Origin: a virus
DNA: 44,827 nt
Virus record (IMG/VR): IMGVR_UViG_3300037628_000762
Span: 1-44,827 of that record
Reading direction: 5' to 3' (one strand)
The first letter of the stretch is position 1, and every line of letters starts with the position of its first letter. The position numbers and the translations under genes are program-made. Positions 169 through 40,937 of this stretch are shown here, in pieces. The notes beneath the pieces are model-generated. The model was not told the DNA's origin. It made no database searches and was given only the letters and a program-made list of their open reading frames with translations.

Positions 169-377
169 CAGTCATTCTCCCTCTGTTTCTTCCGCAGCGC
201 CTCCAAACACAATGGACAATCAGGCAAACGGCGAGCACCAGCCCAAGGCAAGATGACCACATACCCGCATAACGTGTTCACCGAATTAGGCGTCCCCTCG
301 TAGTCCTCTCCTGACGCAATCACACACCAACCATCCCGAGACCGCACGCAGGGGACAGGCAGAACCATCAATGACAT
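168..377 (-). CDS. Hypothetical small protein, 69 aa
   Basis: The start is the ATG at 377, which overlaps the upstream stop as TGATG and is preceded by GGAGAA. A longer reading from 419 is possible but lacks these features. The product contains LCGYVVILPWAGARR and a CxxC pair (DCPLCLEAL) near its charged C-terminus, so a small metal-binding knuckle is possible. The family is unknown. It is translationally coupled on both sides. Confidence 0.7.
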   Translation of the reverse strand: MSLMVLPVPCVRSRDGWCVIASGEDYEGTPNSVNTLCGYVVILPWAGARRLPDCPLCLEALRKKQREND

Positions 378-568
378 CAAATCATTCTCCGAAGATTCCC
401 ACACGGTATGGCGAACCAACGCCCGTCAATCTCCACACAGTGATTCCGAGGCCTGCCACGTGACGCAAAGACCACTACACCGACTTTGCCGTGCAACGGA
501 AACAGATGGCACACAGACTTACGATACCAGACCTGTACCCGCTGGCCCCTACGAGGATTGAGCATCAT
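377..568 (-). CDS. Hypothetical small protein, 63 aa, KOW/SH3-like
   Basis: The ATG at 568 lies inside the stop region of the preceding gene (GGGATGATG) behind a GGGAG ribosome site. The body reads like a small beta-barrel: RGQRVQVWYRK, then KVGVVVFASRG, then CVEIDGRWFAIP. This alternation resembles KOW or SH3-type domains, but no specific family is recognised. Its initiation region is a near copy of the one 180 bases upstream at 744. Confidence 0.7.
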   Translation of the reverse strand: MMLNPRRGQRVQVWYRKSVCHLFPLHGKVGVVVFASRGRPRNHCVEIDGRWFAIPCGNLRRMI

Positions 569-32595: not shown

Positions 32596-33867
32596 CTAGC
32601 CACCGGACGCCGGAGCAACAAAGTCCGCAGTCGGGTACGTATCAATCAGGTCCGTAACGATGCAGTTGGCATTCGGCTTATCACAGACCAACTCCAAATA
32701 CCGCGACCAGGTCGCCTCGTACGCCTCGAAATCCTGCACCCGGTGAAGAACCGCTCCATCCTCGTGCATCCACTCACCCTCACTATCCTGGTAGATCGTG
32801 AAGGTGCTCGTATCGAGGGCAAACAACGTCGCTGCCGGGCAGTGCTTGTCTCGCACAATCGGAATTCCGTTGAAGTCCAGAGCCCGAGCCCAACCATTCA
32901 ACTTCGTCTCACCGGTGAACCGCTTCTGAGCAACCAAGTGGTTCATGAGGTGTGTCCACACCTCATGTGTGGTGATCATCAAGTCGACAGCACCATCAGA
33001 ATGAATGTCAACCAGGTCAACCGCCTCTTGAAGGAGCGCAAGCCACGGATCCTCGGCCGTACCCGCGTCAATCGTCTGACCCTGCCAATATTCGTTCCCG
33101 GCAGTGGCCCGATTGATCCCGCCGTACGTACCGGTCGTACCGCACGCACTGGTCAGACCGTTGAAGACGGCACCATAAGACGACGCCGAAGCCGTAAGCG
33201 ACTGATAAAGGGCAAATGTGTTCTCAGCCCCATTGAACGTCTCTTCGGTCCACTCGGCAACCGTAATCTGGATAGTCTTCGTCGCGACAACAATCGATGT
33301 GATCTTGCCGTACCGAAAACCCGTACCAGTCATCGTACCGTCAGCTATCAGCAACAGGTCAACTCGCTGATTCAAGTGCAGACCCTTGACCGAATCCACG
33401 ATGACTTCAGTTACCCCTGAAGAGGAGTCAACCGTTTGCCCTGTCGGGAAACTCGTCAGTAGCCCGGTTCCATCACCGAAAAGATGAAAGTTGAGCGTAT
33501 TCCGCAACTGCCTCACGAGCGACTTCGTTTCCAAGCTGAACGGCCGAGCCTCCGCTGCGTAGCTCTTCGCCGCCCCCTTCATGTGGGCGGCATCAAGCTG
33601 AATCCGACCGTACAACCGCGAATAGTTGAAGTTCGCCCGCGCAACCTGCTGAGCATCCGCCGTAGGCAAAGCCCCGGTGTCGGAGAAACCGTAACCACCG
33701 GTCCGCCCGGCGTGGAGCGGAATGGAAATCTCCTTACCTTCCGCCCAACTCTCCATGTTACGGCGGAACTTCTGCAAAAGCATGGACTTCAGATTGAACT
33801 GAATCCGCATGTTCGGCTGATACACCGTCCGCAGCATATCACCCTGAGTCGATCTCGTACTGGCCAT
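32596..33867 (-). CDS. Major capsid protein (HK97 fold)
   Basis: A protein of 423 residues. Its position after the scaffold and its sequence pattern (TRSTQGDMLRTVYQPNMRIQ; long helix LETKSLVRQLRNTLNFHLFG; DLMITTHEVWTHLMNHL in the P/A region; C-terminal LELVCDKPNANCIVTDL) fit HK97-fold capsids of podoviruses. No protease gene is near, so N-terminal cleavage is not implied. A strong terminator just upstream probably tunes its transcription, with the gene's own initiation region behind GGAGG. Confidence 0.85.
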   Translation of the reverse strand: MASTRSTQGDMLRTVYQPNMRIQFNLKSMLLQKFRRNMESWAEGKEISIPLHAGRTGGYGFSDTGALPTADAQQVARANFNYSRLYGRIQLDAAHMKGAAKSYAAEARPFSLETKSLVRQLRNTLNFHLFGDGTGLLTSFPTGQTVDSSSGVTEVIVDSVKGLHLNQRVDLLLIADGTMTGTGFRYGKITSIVVATKTIQITVAEWTEETFNGAENTFALYQSLTASASSYGAVFNGLTSACGTTGTYGGINRATAGNEYWQGQTIDAGTAEDPWLALLQEAVDLVDIHSDGAVDLMITTHEVWTHLMNHLVAQKRFTGETKLNGWARALDFNGIPIVRDKHCPAATLFALDTSTFTIYQDSEGEWMHEDGAVLHRVQDFEAYEATWSRYLELVCDKPNANCIVTDLIDTYPTADFVAPASGG

Positions 33868-34903: not shown

Positions 34904-37060
34904 TCACCTCATCCTTGCCGGCCGCCGTGTTGCGGCCACGTTTTTACCGTTACCTCCGGAAGACGACCTCCCGGGTTGCTGTCGCTGTCCCCCTCCTTGC
35001 TGCTGTTGCATCTGCTGAGCTTGAAGCATCCGGGCGACCTCAGGATAATTCGCAAGCAGCGCAATCCGCTCACTGGCTGCGATGATCTGCGGCTCGATCG
35101 CCTTGCGAGCAGCGCCCCGCCAGTGCATCTGAATGTGCTCCTCAAAACGCAGCTCGACCGTTGGGTCGACAGCAAGACGCGACTTGTACTCCGCCATCGT
35201 ACGGAATAACTGGTGCTCGTAGATGTGCAAGTCATCCTCATCACCGCCGGACGGAACAATCGGACTCGTCATTTCGAGCATCGCCTCGTTTTCGTTCTGG
35301 GCGTTCGCTCGATGCTCCTCGCGCGGGTCAGTCCCCAACGCCACCTCTTCGCCCATCCACTTCCGTACAAGCTGCTGATCTTCAGGCTTCTGCGGGTTCA
35401 GCCACCCCCGCTCGGTGAGCATGTCGATCCGAGCCATGACCGCCACCATGTCAGTCTCGACCCCGATCTTCACCTGCACGTTGAACTCGTACGGGCCCGA
35501 GGGACGCTTGTCCTTCGATAGCTCAGAACCCTTGAACTTGCGAACCTGCGACACGTTGTTCGGACCGACAATCGGAAGCGTCCGCTCCGCATCGACGAAC
35601 TGATAGAGAAGCCAGAGAGCTTGCTGCCCGCCCTTACCCAGCGCTTTCTCATTGATCATCCGAGTCACGGAGTTCGTCCGCACGTCGCCCTGAGTCATAG
35701 CCACGGCATGCTTACCGGACTGCGAGGAAGACTCCGTCCGACCCATCGTGTTCGCGTGGATACCCGCGATGTCCTCCATGTCGCGCCGGTTGATCTCATC
35801 AAGCCGATAGGCATCCGGTGGCAATTGCGGTGGAACCCACGGTTTGATCTTACCCGCCGAAAGAATGTTGCTCGTTCCACTAACAGTCACGATCGTCGGG
35901 GCGTCAATCTCAAAGCCACCATCCACAATCGTGACCAGCTCTTCTTTGACGATCGTTGGGTTGATCGTTTTATGCAGGTGAGCCTCCCGATTGCTACGGT
36001 CCTTGTTGCGAGCGTGCTGAAGGCCCATCAAGTCTTTAGTGCTGCCCCCAGGACGGAAATGCTCGTAGTCCGGCTGTTCTTGAAGTGCAATGTACGGTAG
36101 TCGCCCGTGATCGTACGGATGCGGACCACCATGGATGAACTGATTGTCTGCGACAACCGCGTAGTAACCTTTCGGAACCGTCGCACTCTTCGGACGCCAT
36201 ATCTTGTGCACCAGCACACGATCGTCGGGAGCTGTACCATCAAGCAAATTGTCACCCCTCTGCAAGCCCGCCATCTGATAAGTGTACAGATGATTGTCCT
36301 GCGCACGAGAATCGGGGTTGACGTCCTTGAATTTCTCGCCGAACCGCTCCATTCCCCACTCAATCGTCTCTAACCGAGAGTCGATGATCCAAGCCGCTTC
36401 GTCTACATTCCGACACCCTTCCGGCTCAGTCAGCTCAAACCCAGTAGCAAAATCGAAAACCATATCACCCTTGGCGATGGTCTCCTGATCGGTCGCCTCA
36501 GAAAAGTGCTCTGCGTAGTGCTTCTGCGGATCCCAGGTCGGATTGAGCCAGATAATCCCCGTTGCGTACATGTGCCACATGGCGTCGAGAAGACGGGTCA
36601 TACCGTGAGCTATGCCGCTCGACCAGTAATACTCGAGTAGTTGCGTCGCCAACTTGGCAGCCTGCTTATCATCCGGATCCGGGGTGCGCGGGAAGCAATG
36701 CCAGCCGATCGGTTTGGCGATCACCAAGCCGATCCAGGACATCACGAAACGCTTGAGCATGTTGACCTGCATCGGGAACCGCTCATGCAGGGCCTTCTCC
36801 TGTTTGGATTTCCCCGCCCAAGCGTGCATATCCTGATCAATATGCCGATGCTGATCGTGATCCTCCCAGAAGAGGTGCTGATTCCCTCGCACCCAAGCCA
36901 GGCGCTGCGCAGCTTCACGCTCCCAGATCAAACGGCGCATCTTCCCCGCCTCATACTGGTGCATGACGAAATCGACCATGGCCCGATCGCCGGGATTCTT
37001 CCAGTCGACCTCGTAAGTGGCGTGTGCCGCACCCCGTTCGTGTTGATACTCGCGAACCAT
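34904..37060 (-). CDS. Portal protein, P22 gp1-type
   Basis: A protein of 718 residues. The long portal with a C-terminal Gln-rich barrel-like region (MLQAQQMQQQQGGGQ) and typical wing/stem segments (LKRFVMSWIGLVIAKPIGW, ARNKDRSNREAHLHKTINP) matches P22-type portals. The dodecamer is the DNA entry channel. The gene is preceded by two hairpins in a 183-base non-coding stretch, so it may have separate regulation. Confidence 0.85.
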   Translation of the reverse strand: MVREYQHERGAAHATYEVDWKNPGDRAMVDFVMHQYEAGKMRRLIWEREAAQRLAWVRGNQHLFWEDHDQHRHIDQDMHAWAGKSKQEKALHERFPMQVNMLKRFVMSWIGLVIAKPIGWHCFPRTPDPDDKQAAKLATQLLEYYWSSGIAHGMTRLLDAMWHMYATGIIWLNPTWDPQKHYAEHFSEATDQETIAKGDMVFDFATGFELTEPEGCRNVDEAAWIIDSRLETIEWGMERFGEKFKDVNPDSRAQDNHLYTYQMAGLQRGDNLLDGTAPDDRVLVHKIWRPKSATVPKGYYAVVADNQFIHGGPHPYDHGRLPYIALQEQPDYEHFRPGGSTKDLMGLQHARNKDRSNREAHLHKTINPTIVKEELVTIVDGGFEIDAPTIVTVSGTSNILSAGKIKPWVPPQLPPDAYRLDEINRRDMEDIAGIHANTMGRTESSSQSGKHAVAMTQGDVRTNSVTRMINEKALGKGGQQALWLLYQFVDAERTLPIVGPNNVSQVRKFKGSELSKDKRPSGPYEFNVQVKIGVETDMVAVMARIDMLTERGWLNPQKPEDQQLVRKWMGEEVALGTDPREEHRANAQNENEAMLEMTSPIVPSGGDEDDLHIYEHQLFRTMAEYKSRLAVDPTVELRFEEHIQMHWRGAARKAIEPQIIAASERIALLANYPEVARMLQAQQMQQQQGGGQRQQPGRSSSGGNGKNVAATRRPARMR

Positions 37061-37243: not shown

Positions 37244-37645
37244 TTAAGTTACTTTTGCATTCGCTCGCCTCCACCGTCGAACCCTACGAGCAAATCGCTT
37301 CCCTTCTAAGTTGACCCAATACCAAAACCCGAACCCAGATGTCAGATTCAAGATGTACGACCCAGCACCAACACACCTGCATCGAATCCAGTATCGCAAT
37401 TCGTAAAAGCCAGGACGATACTTCTCGGGCTCCAACCGACGACAGAGCGACAACCATGCGTCAAAGTCAAAATCCAGTCCGCCGTAAGGAGGACACTCAG
37501 AACGAGGACGCTGCCAGTAGCAGACCTCCTCCGACGAAAGCACCCAATTCGCCGCAGAGGACAACCTCCTGTTAACACGAAAACACACCTCGTCCAAGAA
37601 CGACATAGAACCGTAAGAGCACGTATGACGTTGCAAGAACATCAT
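37244..37645 (-). CDS. Hypothetical Trp/Arg-rich protein, 133 aa
   Basis: The ATG at 37645 overlaps the terminase stop (ATGA). It has scattered Cys (KCxx absent; single Cys at SECPPYGG, RCRCVG) and a basic C-terminus (RFARRVRRWRRANAK). Hydrophobic aromatic stretches (GFGFWYWVNLEG) suggest a beta-rich small domain. Unknown; a packaging-associated factor is possible from its position between terminase and portal. Confidence 0.68.
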   Translation of the reverse strand: MMFLQRHTCSYGSMSFLDEVCFRVNRRLSSAANWVLSSEEVCYWQRPRSECPPYGGLDFDFDAWLSLCRRLEPEKYRPGFYELRYWIRCRCVGAGSYILNLTSGFGFWYWVNLEGKRFARRVRRWRRANAKVT

Positions 37646-39357
37646 TCCACCCGCCCCATCAAAGCCTCCCGAGCCTCGCGGTACTGCATCGCTCTCGTCA
37701 TCGAAACGCTGAACTTCGTACCGCGGCGACGGGCCCGCTGGTCGCTCTGGTACGCCGCGATTGCCGCGCCCGACCGGTCCAACGTAATATCCTTCGCCAA
37801 ATCACACGAGCCGTCAATCAGGTTACTCAGATGATTGATCCCCGACAAGACCTCCTGATCGTCTCCCGCCGTCTCCTCGTCAGTCTTCGGACAACCGCGG
37901 AACTTCCGATGAGGCTCAGTCAGAATGCCGAACTCGGTGAACATCCCGATGAGGTTCGGATCACTATGGTCGGCGACCGTCGTCTCGAACTTCTCACCCC
38001 GAATCCCTTGGACCCATCGGTCGCGGATGTTCGGCGGAGCCTCAACCCAACCCGACATCGCGTGGACCTTCCCGATGAGCTTGAGCGGAGTCACGCCGTT
38101 ACTCAATGCATCGCGGATGTACAACTCGCGATAGACGTAGACCAGGCCGGTCAACCCGCCCCGGGCCGTCGTCACGAGATATCGCAGCGCGTCGCAGGTA
38201 TGATCGTTCTTCTTGACCGGCTTATCAACCTTATCCGGGTCCCACCGATAGCCAAGCATCTCGCGAATCGTCTCCGGACAGTCCGGCGAAACGATCAACC
38301 CCGGCTTCCCGGAAAAGTACGCACACCAGAGAATTGCGTGAGCACTCGGGCCACCACCCCAGTCGACCGCCCGAAAACGAACCGTCTCCCACGGAACCTC
38401 GACACGAGCAACGCAACGTTCACGCGTAAACAGCGGGTAAATCCGCCCCGTAGCGTACTCGAACGCCTCCGCCGGCGTCTCAGGATACTCCTGCTTCACG
38501 GCGACCGACGAGATATGCCGCAACTTCTCAGCCTGGACCTCGTACCAGTCCTGATCTCGACCAGGCCGCTCCGACCAGTGCAGAAAGACCGGCATGAACC
38601 CGGTCGGACCAACTCCGTCTTCGTCGAGCAGCTTCCCCTCGTCACCGTACGTTACCTGCCAGAGATCGTAGAAGTCGCCCTGCGGGCCCGCCGAAGTCGT
38701 CAAGAGGATCAACTGCCCGCCGGCCACCTCGAGCGCCGGCTCAACCGCGGCAAGCGTCTCGCCGAGCATGGGGATTCGAGAAGCCTCGTCGAAGATCGCC
38801 AGATCGGCAGTAAACGACCGGGCCGCGTTCGACGAACCCGCCAGACTGAAAAGCTCAACCTCCTTCCCACCCTCCGCCTCGAAGCGAAGCTCCTCCAGGT
38901 TGTCCGTCGTGATCCGTGGCCGCATCCACGCCGGAAGTCGCTTCAGAATCCACTTCACCCGCCGAATGAACTCCTTGGCATACTTCGTCTGCTGACTGAC
39001 CGTGACGATCGTGAACCGGTGCTCGTAGATGATCCGCCAGACGCAGTAGGCTACCATGAGCCACGTCAGACCAAGTTGGCGACCCTTGAGTGCCATGATC
39101 CACTTGCCGTCAACGAGATGCGGAGCGATACGAGCCTGCCCCTCAAACAGATCGAAGGGAATCTCGCGGCTGGTGGCACGGTCCTGAATCTTGACGTACT
39201 TACTGCACCATCGCAGAAAGCCCTCAACCCCGTAAAGCGGCGAACACAGAAGGTGCTCCATGAACTGATCTCGGTCCATCACCACGCGCGGAGTAACCGT
39301 CGTACTCCGCTTCGGCGGAGCCGCGAGAGTGGCCAGACTGGGGAGGTGAGAGATCAT
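37642..39357 (-). CDS. Terminase large subunit with permuted nuclease domain
   Basis: A packaging motor of 571 residues. ATPase: KGRQLGLTWL (about 91-100, a deviant Walker A), Walker B LAIFDEAS (186-193). Nuclease: motif I AVDWGGGP (330-337), then GLIVSPDCPETIREMLGYRW ... KKNDHTCDALRYLV (353-396), which is normally the C-terminal motif III, and only then VYVYRELY (406-413) and motif II ADHSDPNLIGMF (462-473). The moved block spans 48 codons (about 38158-38301), is in frame, and begins and is followed by GGGTTGAYC at each boundary. The start at 39357 overlaps the preceding stop (TGATG). Confidence 0.93.
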   Translation of the reverse strand: MISHLPSLATLAAPPKRSTTVTPRVVMDRDQFMEHLLCSPLYGVEGFLRWCSKYVKIQDRATSREIPFDLFEGQARIAPHLVDGKWIMALKGRQLGLTWLMVAYCVWRIIYEHRFTIVTVSQQTKYAKEFIRRVKWILKRLPAWMRPRITTDNLEELRFEAEGGKEVELFSLAGSSNAARSFTADLAIFDEASRIPMLGETLAAVEPALEVAGGQLILLTTSAGPQGDFYDLWQVTYGDEGKLLDEDGVGPTGFMPVFLHWSERPGRDQDWYEVQAEKLRHISSVAVKQEYPETPAEAFEYATGRIYPLFTRERCVARVEVPWETVRFRAVDWGGGPSAHAILWCAYFSGKPGLIVSPDCPETIREMLGYRWDPDKVDKPVKKNDHTCDALRYLVTTARGGLTGLVYVYRELYIRDALSNGVTPLKLIGKVHAMSGWVEAPPNIRDRWVQGIRGEKFETTVADHSDPNLIGMFTEFGILTEPHRKFRGCPKTDEETAGDDQEVLSGINHLSNLIDGSCDLAKDITLDRSGAAIAAYQSDQRARRRGTKFSVSMTRAMQYREAREALMGRVE

Positions 39358-39584
39358 CAGTTCAACCTCGGCGAACCCCACTCGCGGCCGATACGCAACG
39401 CGATCACGTGCTGACGCCGCTCGTACTCCACGTTAATGTCCATCAAAGCCTCAGCCTCCGCGTGTTCAAGAGGCTGTCCATCCGCATAGTGGTCGACAAC
39501 CCTCGACACGTAAAACTGATGCCACGATTCCAGCAGCTCGCATGGAATCTCAATCCTCAAATGTGGAGGGCTACTTGGTGGCAT
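39357..39584 (-). CDS. Hypothetical protein, 75 aa
   Basis: Helical, acidic in the middle (HAEAEALMDINVEYERRQ), ATG at 39584 overlapping the preceding gene by 14 bases. It directly precedes the large terminase and could be a packaging accessory; no motif supports this. Confidence 0.68.
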   Translation of the reverse strand: MPPSSPPHLRIEIPCELLESWHQFYVSRVVDHYADGQPLEHAEAEALMDINVEYERRQHVIALRIGREWGSPRLN

Positions 39585-40597: not shown

Positions 40598-40783
40598 CTA
40601 TGCGTTTTGACTATCATCCCGATCGTACCGATATTCGCCGCAATACCGACAACGGTATGTAGACGTCTCGTGATCCTCGTCGCTGTACGACAACTCCAAC
40701 AACTCCCAATCGTGCTCGCAAACACTAGCGGGGGCAGGACTCGAACCTGCGACCTCCGGATTATGAGACCGGTACGCTGCCAT
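40598..40783 (-). CDS. Zinc-ribbon-like small protein, start uncertain
   Basis: The C-terminal 40 residues look real: CEHDWELLELSYSDEDHE followed by YRCRYCGEYRYDRDD, a Cx2-type pair of the kind found in small phage zinc proteins. No ATG lies after the tRNA; the first in-frame ATG (40783) is inside the tRNA-Met gene. Either the ORF starts inside the tRNA, uses a rare start, or has lost its 5' end to the tRNA. Confidence 0.5.
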   Translation of the reverse strand: MAAYRSHNPEVAGSSPAPASVCEHDWELLELSYSDEDHETSTYRCRYCGEYRYDRDDSQNA

Positions 40784-40798
40784 CTGCGCTACCCCGCA
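40726..40798 (-). tRNA. tRNA-Met (CAT)
   Basis: A 73-base cloverleaf: acceptor GCGGGG with CCCCGC (first pair T-T), D-arm with AGCGCAGATGGCAGC, anticodon loop CTCATAA (CAT), and T-arm GCAGG-TTCGAGT-CCTGC; A73, no encoded CCA. The anticodon stem lacks the three G-C pairs of initiators (T31-T39 mismatch). An elongator Met tRNA or a CAU isoleucine tRNA are both possible. It overlaps two ORFs. Confidence 0.88.
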
Positions 40799-40937
40799 AC
40801 CGATCCATCTCGCCAAGCATCCACCGGAGCACCCTCGAAAGCTCCGGCTTCACGATGGCGTACAGCTCGGGATGTTCCCGCCGCCAACGCTGCCGGCACG
40901 CCGCTATCTGCTCATCTATGAGGTCCGTTTCGCTCAT
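40761..40937 (-). CDS. Hypothetical protein, 58 aa, ending inside the tRNA
   Basis: MSETDLIDEQIAACRQRWRR..., started by the ATG at 40937 that overlaps the upstream stop (ATGA). The frame runs 38 bases into the tRNA and terminates at the TAA of the anticodon loop (40763-40761). The first 48 residues are helical and credible; the tail is dictated by the tRNA. Confidence 0.62.
   Translation of the reverse strand: MSETDLIDEQIAACRQRWRREHPELYAIVKPELSRVLRWMLGEMDRLRGSADGSVPVS

Follow-up and report, generated by a model that had tools for sequence, protein, structure and literature searches.

Terminase gene and its neighbourhood

The window, that is, the whole 44827-base stretch of DNA that was analysed, is a metagenomic virus record and carries on its minus strand a large terminase (TerL) gene at 37642..39357, recognized by Terminase_6N (score 24.3 against a gathering score of 22), phrog_2 and other terminase families. 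The phrog_2 match spans residues 71-462 of the protein and, in the nuclease domain, residues 56-151. Because the ATG at 39357 overlaps the stop codon of the upstream gene (TGATG), the true gene probably does span 37642-39357; read from an in-frame GTG at 39381, the protein has 579 aa, and all residue numbers used here count from that GTG (minus 8 for the ATG start). A portal protein gene lies downstream of TerL (34904..37060, minus strand; phrog_156), and a major capsid protein (phrog_14242) is encoded at 32596..33867 on the same strand, which together make up the portal and capsid neighbourhood of a TerL. Upstream of the packaging genes, a tRNA-Met (CAT) gene is found at 40725-40799, also on the minus strand.

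The N-terminal part of the protein (residues 50-300; 38482..39234, minus strand) is a T4-type packaging ATPase domain, as assigned by hhalign and by comparison with the T4 gp17 structure, and it contains both Walker motifs. Walker A, KGRQLGLT (K99-T106; 39064..39087, minus strand), is conserved and has its lysine at the front of the loop, with K99, R101, Q102, G104 and T106 invariant among 10 sequences; Walker B, LAIFDE, lies at 38785..38802 on the minus strand, with D198 and E199 invariant. At the position that is lysine in most P-loops, this one has a hydrophobic residue. P-loops of like form occur in the T4-type relatives L021 (KARQIGFS) and L022 (KARQMGIS).

Order of the nuclease motifs

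In TerL, a hallmark enzyme of both tailed phages and herpesviruses, the nuclease motifs generally come in the order I-II-III, motif III being C-terminal, although this is not part of a formal definition. The window TerL does not follow this order: its motif III block lies between beta2 and beta3 of the RNase H nuclease, which gives I-III-II. Nuclease segment I (residues 312-356; 38314..38448, minus strand throughout this paragraph) comprises beta1 with the motif I aspartate D340 (38362-38364) and beta2. The transposed block follows (residues 357-409; 38155..38313), consisting of the strand LIVS, a helix and the NDHTCDALRY helix, with D393 (38203-38205) and D397 (38191-38193). Segment II (residues 410-526; 37804..38154) contains beta3 (VYVYREL), beta4 with the motif II aspartate D471 (37969-37971), beta5 and the next helix, and the protein ends in a family-specific tail (residues 527-579; 37645..37803) that is predicted to be helical and is devoid of motif III.

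A preliminary description of this DNA had reported a 48-codon block at 38158-38301 on the minus strand (GLIVSPDCPETIREMLGYRWDPDKVDKPVKKNDHTCDALRYLVTTARG), in frame between motif I (AVDWG) and VYVYREL, and both the translation and the mapping of the separate segments agree with that placement. The limits given for the block hold for its in-frame content, but the homologous block corresponds to about residues 357-409 (38155-38313) and starts about four codons earlier. Canonical TerLs open the block with xGKPxLxI (SGKPALVI in L005, NGKPSLFI in L003), so the SGKPGLIV of the window belongs to the block. When the segments were aligned separately by hhalign with 25 canonical TerLs, residues 312-355 fell on 230-273 of the canonical TerL L085 (Prob 97), the block (358-407) on 366-416 (Prob 99.5, E about 1e-22) and residues 413-523 on 278-361 (Prob 96.7), probabilities that are indicative because the runs were pairwise. 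The same description held that the C-terminus lacks a motif III block, and named a genuine second copy there as one of the findings that would overturn it. This copy was looked for and is absent: across the six frames of the whole window the only DHxxDALRY-like motif is the one at 38205 (minus strand), and the C-terminal tail had no match among the canonical TerLs.

The permuted order was found in 12 distinct uncultured viruses, window included, each time in one open frame. It is far beyond chance, because the block alone matches canonical C-termini with high probability and because the arrangement recurs in 11 other contigs. All remaining TerLs whose motifs were read have the order I-II-III, and we therefore regard the permuted one as derived. 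The motif permutation at this locus is genuine, derived and shared by a whole clade, and the hallmark viral enzyme that carries it is also a domain chimera. The preliminary description had noticed neither the spread through the clade nor the chimera.

Conservation of the permuted nuclease

The three catalytic carboxylates of motifs I, II and III (D340, D471 and D393/D397) are all present, as had been stated, and D340, D393, H394, D397 and D471 are invariant both in a 10-row alignment (A2) and in a 12-row nuclease alignment (A3). The block is the most conserved segment of the protein, with a mean pairwise identity of 64%, compared with 51% for the ATPase core and 31% for the tail. Its dN/dS was 0.04, 0.10 and 0.18 in three pairs, in each of which synonymous divergence was high, showing purifying selection. 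Cutting by the G20c terminase depends on three essential aspartates, D294, D347 and D429 (PMC5389553). Given this dependence, the invariance of the acids and the low dN/dS of the block, the TerL with the permuted nuclease is likely still a working enzyme. The earlier suggestion of a functional enzyme of altered topology is supported by the same sequence evidence and by the recurrence of the arrangement in 12 viruses.

One alternative is a degenerate nuclease, whose active site no longer assembles after the move of the block, so that the protein would act as a packaging ATPase only and another nuclease would cut. Such a loss has a parallel in the phi29 packaging ATPase, which is reported to have a vestigial nuclease domain (PMC7672431). 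However, the four acids and H394 have stayed invariant across proteins that are only about 40-50% identical, and the block is both the most conserved segment and one with dN/dS of 0.04-0.18, which makes a degenerate nuclease unlikely compared with a working, permuted one.

Predicted structure and kinship of the nuclease

The predicted model of the nuclease domain (pLDDT 82.3, pTM 0.80, from a shallow alignment of 12 sequences) superposes on residues 236-364 of the D6E terminase with Z 9.8 and 2.1 A over 125 residues, and on the SPP1, P22 and G20c nucleases with Z 8.0-7.6. The model thereby shows an RNase H core in the nuclease, and the protein has, by the same comparison (Z 9.8 to 7.6), the C-terminal RNase H-like domain of a TerL. 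The D6E alignment ends right before D6E's own C-terminal motif III block, which is what a sequential aligner should do with a permuted protein. A model of the full-length protein is modest in quality (pLDDT 70.8, pTM 0.47, from a shallow alignment of 10 sequences), and its alignments with D6E end near residue 365. A helix is predicted at 394-408, followed by a strand at 413-421. We infer that, once the domain has folded, the block takes up its usual position and the acids converge in three dimensions.

Sequence profiles point to the same kinship. When the A2 profile was compared with the D6E TerL chain 5oe8, the alignments crossed, residues 303-348, 446-486 and 358-402 falling on 233-278, 310-350 and 369-417, respectively, the first two pieces being weak when taken alone (only 3-4 bits). 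The protein has both the NDHxxDALRY-type block and the matching core of a D6E/PBSX-type (Terminase_3C) nuclease. A Terminase_3C match was obtained for 10 of the 12 permuted proteins at E up to 1 (best 2.9e-8), that of the window TerL lying below the gathering score, and a collinear match over the whole Terminase_3C domain was not obtained, as the segments cross.

These data bear on a reading without any permutation, in which a canonical TerL lost its motif II, so that I-III remained, and the C-terminal part is an unrelated extension resembling the motif II segment. A collinear alignment can indeed join motifs I and III (window 306-407 with canonical 224-416). Yet residues 413-523 by themselves match the canonical interval from motif I to motif III (Prob 95.7-96.8), and the superposition on D6E 236-364 needs the C-terminal part to supply strands 3 to 5, so that we regard a deletion as very improbable and retain the permutation.

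Relatives with the permuted order

The preliminary description had proposed a search for the same order in metagenomic homologues, and the order was found in 11 other IMG/VR contigs (L025, L031, L033, L034, L035, L037, L038/L057, L042, L048, L055 and L056), whose TerLs are 42-46% identical to that of the window and lie in open frames of 558-596 aa. Pairwise identity among the 12 permuted proteins ranges from 40 to 92%. The first relative came to light via the portal protein (L012, identical with L014 and L025); its TerL aligns end to end with the window's, block included, at 45% identity. A pattern scan of IMG/VR that required a Y/F-x-Y/F-x-E strand within 24-54 bases after motif III yielded nine permuted-order contigs, and L055 and L056 were added by a scan with the resulting alignment. 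A profile of the family gave one match, with no internal stops, in each of the 11 other contigs. It gave none in the outgroup L013. That the window, a metagenomic record with near-identical 9-mers on both sides of the block, is mis-assembled or holds a one-off rearrangement of a canonical gene has a negligible probability, because the same order in independent contigs of this divergence, all in open frames, excludes it without recourse to reads.

Several candidates were rejected on reading. L024, L026-L030, L032, L036, L039, L040 and L043 are canonical TerLs in which the second half of the pattern follows the C-terminal motif III by chance, L041 and L044-L047 from the same scan are not terminases of the permuted kind, and L065, L081, L084 and L085, which seemed permuted from their match ranges, read as canonical.

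Other searches were negative within their scope. In tblastn against 50,697 phage records, with three nuclease domains and two full proteins as queries, no record covered 80% of a query, and none of the collinear matches across the junction was convincing; a few weak alignments extended beyond the end of the terminase gene. A plasmid search returned partial matches to the ATPase region only, and a BFVD fold search gave no high-scoring whole-domain match, its named matches being ordinary terminase annotations. Nothing was found by scans that used the capsid protein or only the ATPase half, and a scan of genome contigs gave two loci with a match to the block only.

Of the 11 permuted contigs tested, 10 had both a portal homologue near TerL and a major capsid homologue; neither was detected in the L054 stretch. 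The outgroup L013 (IMGVR_UViG_3300038701_001348) has portal and capsid homologues in common with the permuted group and a different, canonical TerL, a mix that suggests exchange of terminases within the lineage. In a midpoint-rooted tree of the ATPases that included seven T4-type TerLs, the 12 permuted proteins form one clade with moderate support (0.76), in line with a single origin.

Chimeric make-up of the protein

The two halves of the protein differ in their affinities. Residues 56-300 match T4-type TerLs with hhalign Prob 100 (E about 1e-45), and the T4 gp17 ATPase structure 2o0j is matched with Z 24.2, whereas the nuclease segments give Prob below 1 with the same T4-type TerLs, so that the nuclease is not of T4 type. 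Against NDH-type canonical TerLs the reverse is seen, with Prob above 99 for the nuclease and about 5-11 for the ATPase. The switch in affinity lies near residues 306-322. Judged by these profile comparisons, the permuted proteins are chimeras of a T4-type ATPase and a D6E/PBSX-type nuclease.

Proposed mechanism and origin

The whole is best explained, and with high confidence on our part, by a genuine TerL of uncultured tailed phages with a T4-type ATPase and presumed two-metal cutting, in which an ancestral move brought the block into the beta2-beta3 turn. An ancestral RNase H nuclease of the D6E/PBSX kind would have had its C-terminal motif III block shifted into that turn, I-III-II replacing I-II-III, and both the domain exchange and the permutation took place within the lineage of the permuted TerLs. 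The C-terminal helices of terminases run antiparallel to beta1 (PMC3985635). The helix of the block would accordingly start at the active-site end of beta1 and finish on that side of the sheet on which the chain passes from beta2 to beta3, which makes insertion of the block there sterically plausible, the chain entering and leaving it through short links at the beta2-beta3 turn. In the resulting enzyme, the ATPase would pump DNA and D340, D471 and D393/D397 would cut the concatemer by the usual two-metal mechanism.

As to how the order arose, the likeliest origin may be a tandem duplication of the part with motifs II and III, after which the first II and the last III were lost, a route that would give I-III-II without any special footprint. 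Neither an unpermuted intermediate (T4-type ATPase with NDH-type nuclease) nor a leftover duplicate was found, and this route is therefore a guess.

A recombination footprint had been suggested by the sequence GGGTTGAYC, one copy of which (GGGTTGATC; 38293..38301, minus strand) starts the 48-codon block while the other (GGGTTGACC; 38149..38157, minus strand) directly follows it. The suggestion does not hold. Neither copy is conserved in the relatives, most of which show just 7-9 matching bases between the two boundary regions, as is usual for random pairs from the same gene. Of 300 random pairs drawn from the window TerL gene, 19 were as good as the observed boundary match. The 13-base match in L025 follows a common peptide, TGL. 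As the block moved in an ancestor of proteins that are now 40-50% identical, any nucleotide footprint would be long gone.

Comparison with known terminases

The TerL of Geobacillus phage D6E (5OE8; Terminase_3C-like in Pfam, PBSX type) is the best structural match of the nuclease model and has the same RNase H core with similar motifs I, II and III, but its order is I-II-III with the block at 369-417 instead of between beta2 and beta3, and its ATPase is of another type. Phage T4 gp17 (3CPE, 2O0J) and the T4-type TerLs have an alike ATPase and differ in nuclease sequence and motif order. The G20c nuclease (5M1F), a RuvC-like two-metal enzyme matched by the model with Z 7.6, has the canonical order I-II-III, unlike the window TerL. 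Circularly permuted adenine methylases have been described in jumbo phages (PMC7824862); the likeness of these phage DNA methyltransferases lies only in the permuted motifs of a catalytic fold, their fold and function being unrelated. The word permutation does not occur in a survey of the RNase H-like superfamily (PMC3985635). Searches limited to open-access literature turned up no report of a permuted terminase nuclease, and an earlier description elsewhere is possible.

The last helix of D6E is followed by a C-terminal arm (418-427), which extends to the ATPase active site (PMC5727402). The permuted helix runs within a few residues into beta3, so an arm of the D6E kind cannot sit in the same place, and the tail at 527-579 might replace its role. 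A tentative and rather doubtful extension is that a phage clade has swapped its usual terminase for a working chimeric, motif-permuted enzyme, with the coupling of nuclease, ATPase and portal perhaps rewired through the new tail; if this is true, re-threading has relocated the terminus whose D6E counterpart is in contact with the active site of the ATPase. The permuted clade indicates that a conserved viral nuclease fold tolerates re-threading, and offers a natural experiment on which chain connections matter for coupling pumping to cutting. It is also a warning that collinear profiles may align just part of permuted proteins and score them low.

Intein-like insertions in other terminase regions

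Three intein-like features were noted in other records. A canonical TerL at 865-3195 of L001 (IMGVR_UViG_3300035698_004194) has an apparent intein-like insertion in the Walker A region (NRCLGG... to ...VINHNS). The TerL of MW202554.1 (L018/L023; 32005-34542) is annotated as two pieces with a small ORF between them, the first piece containing an intein-like stretch that ends in NYVVSGYLSRNC. In the 484-kb phage LR756508.1 (L022, from 4927 onward), an open frame downstream of TerL carries an intein-like insertion.
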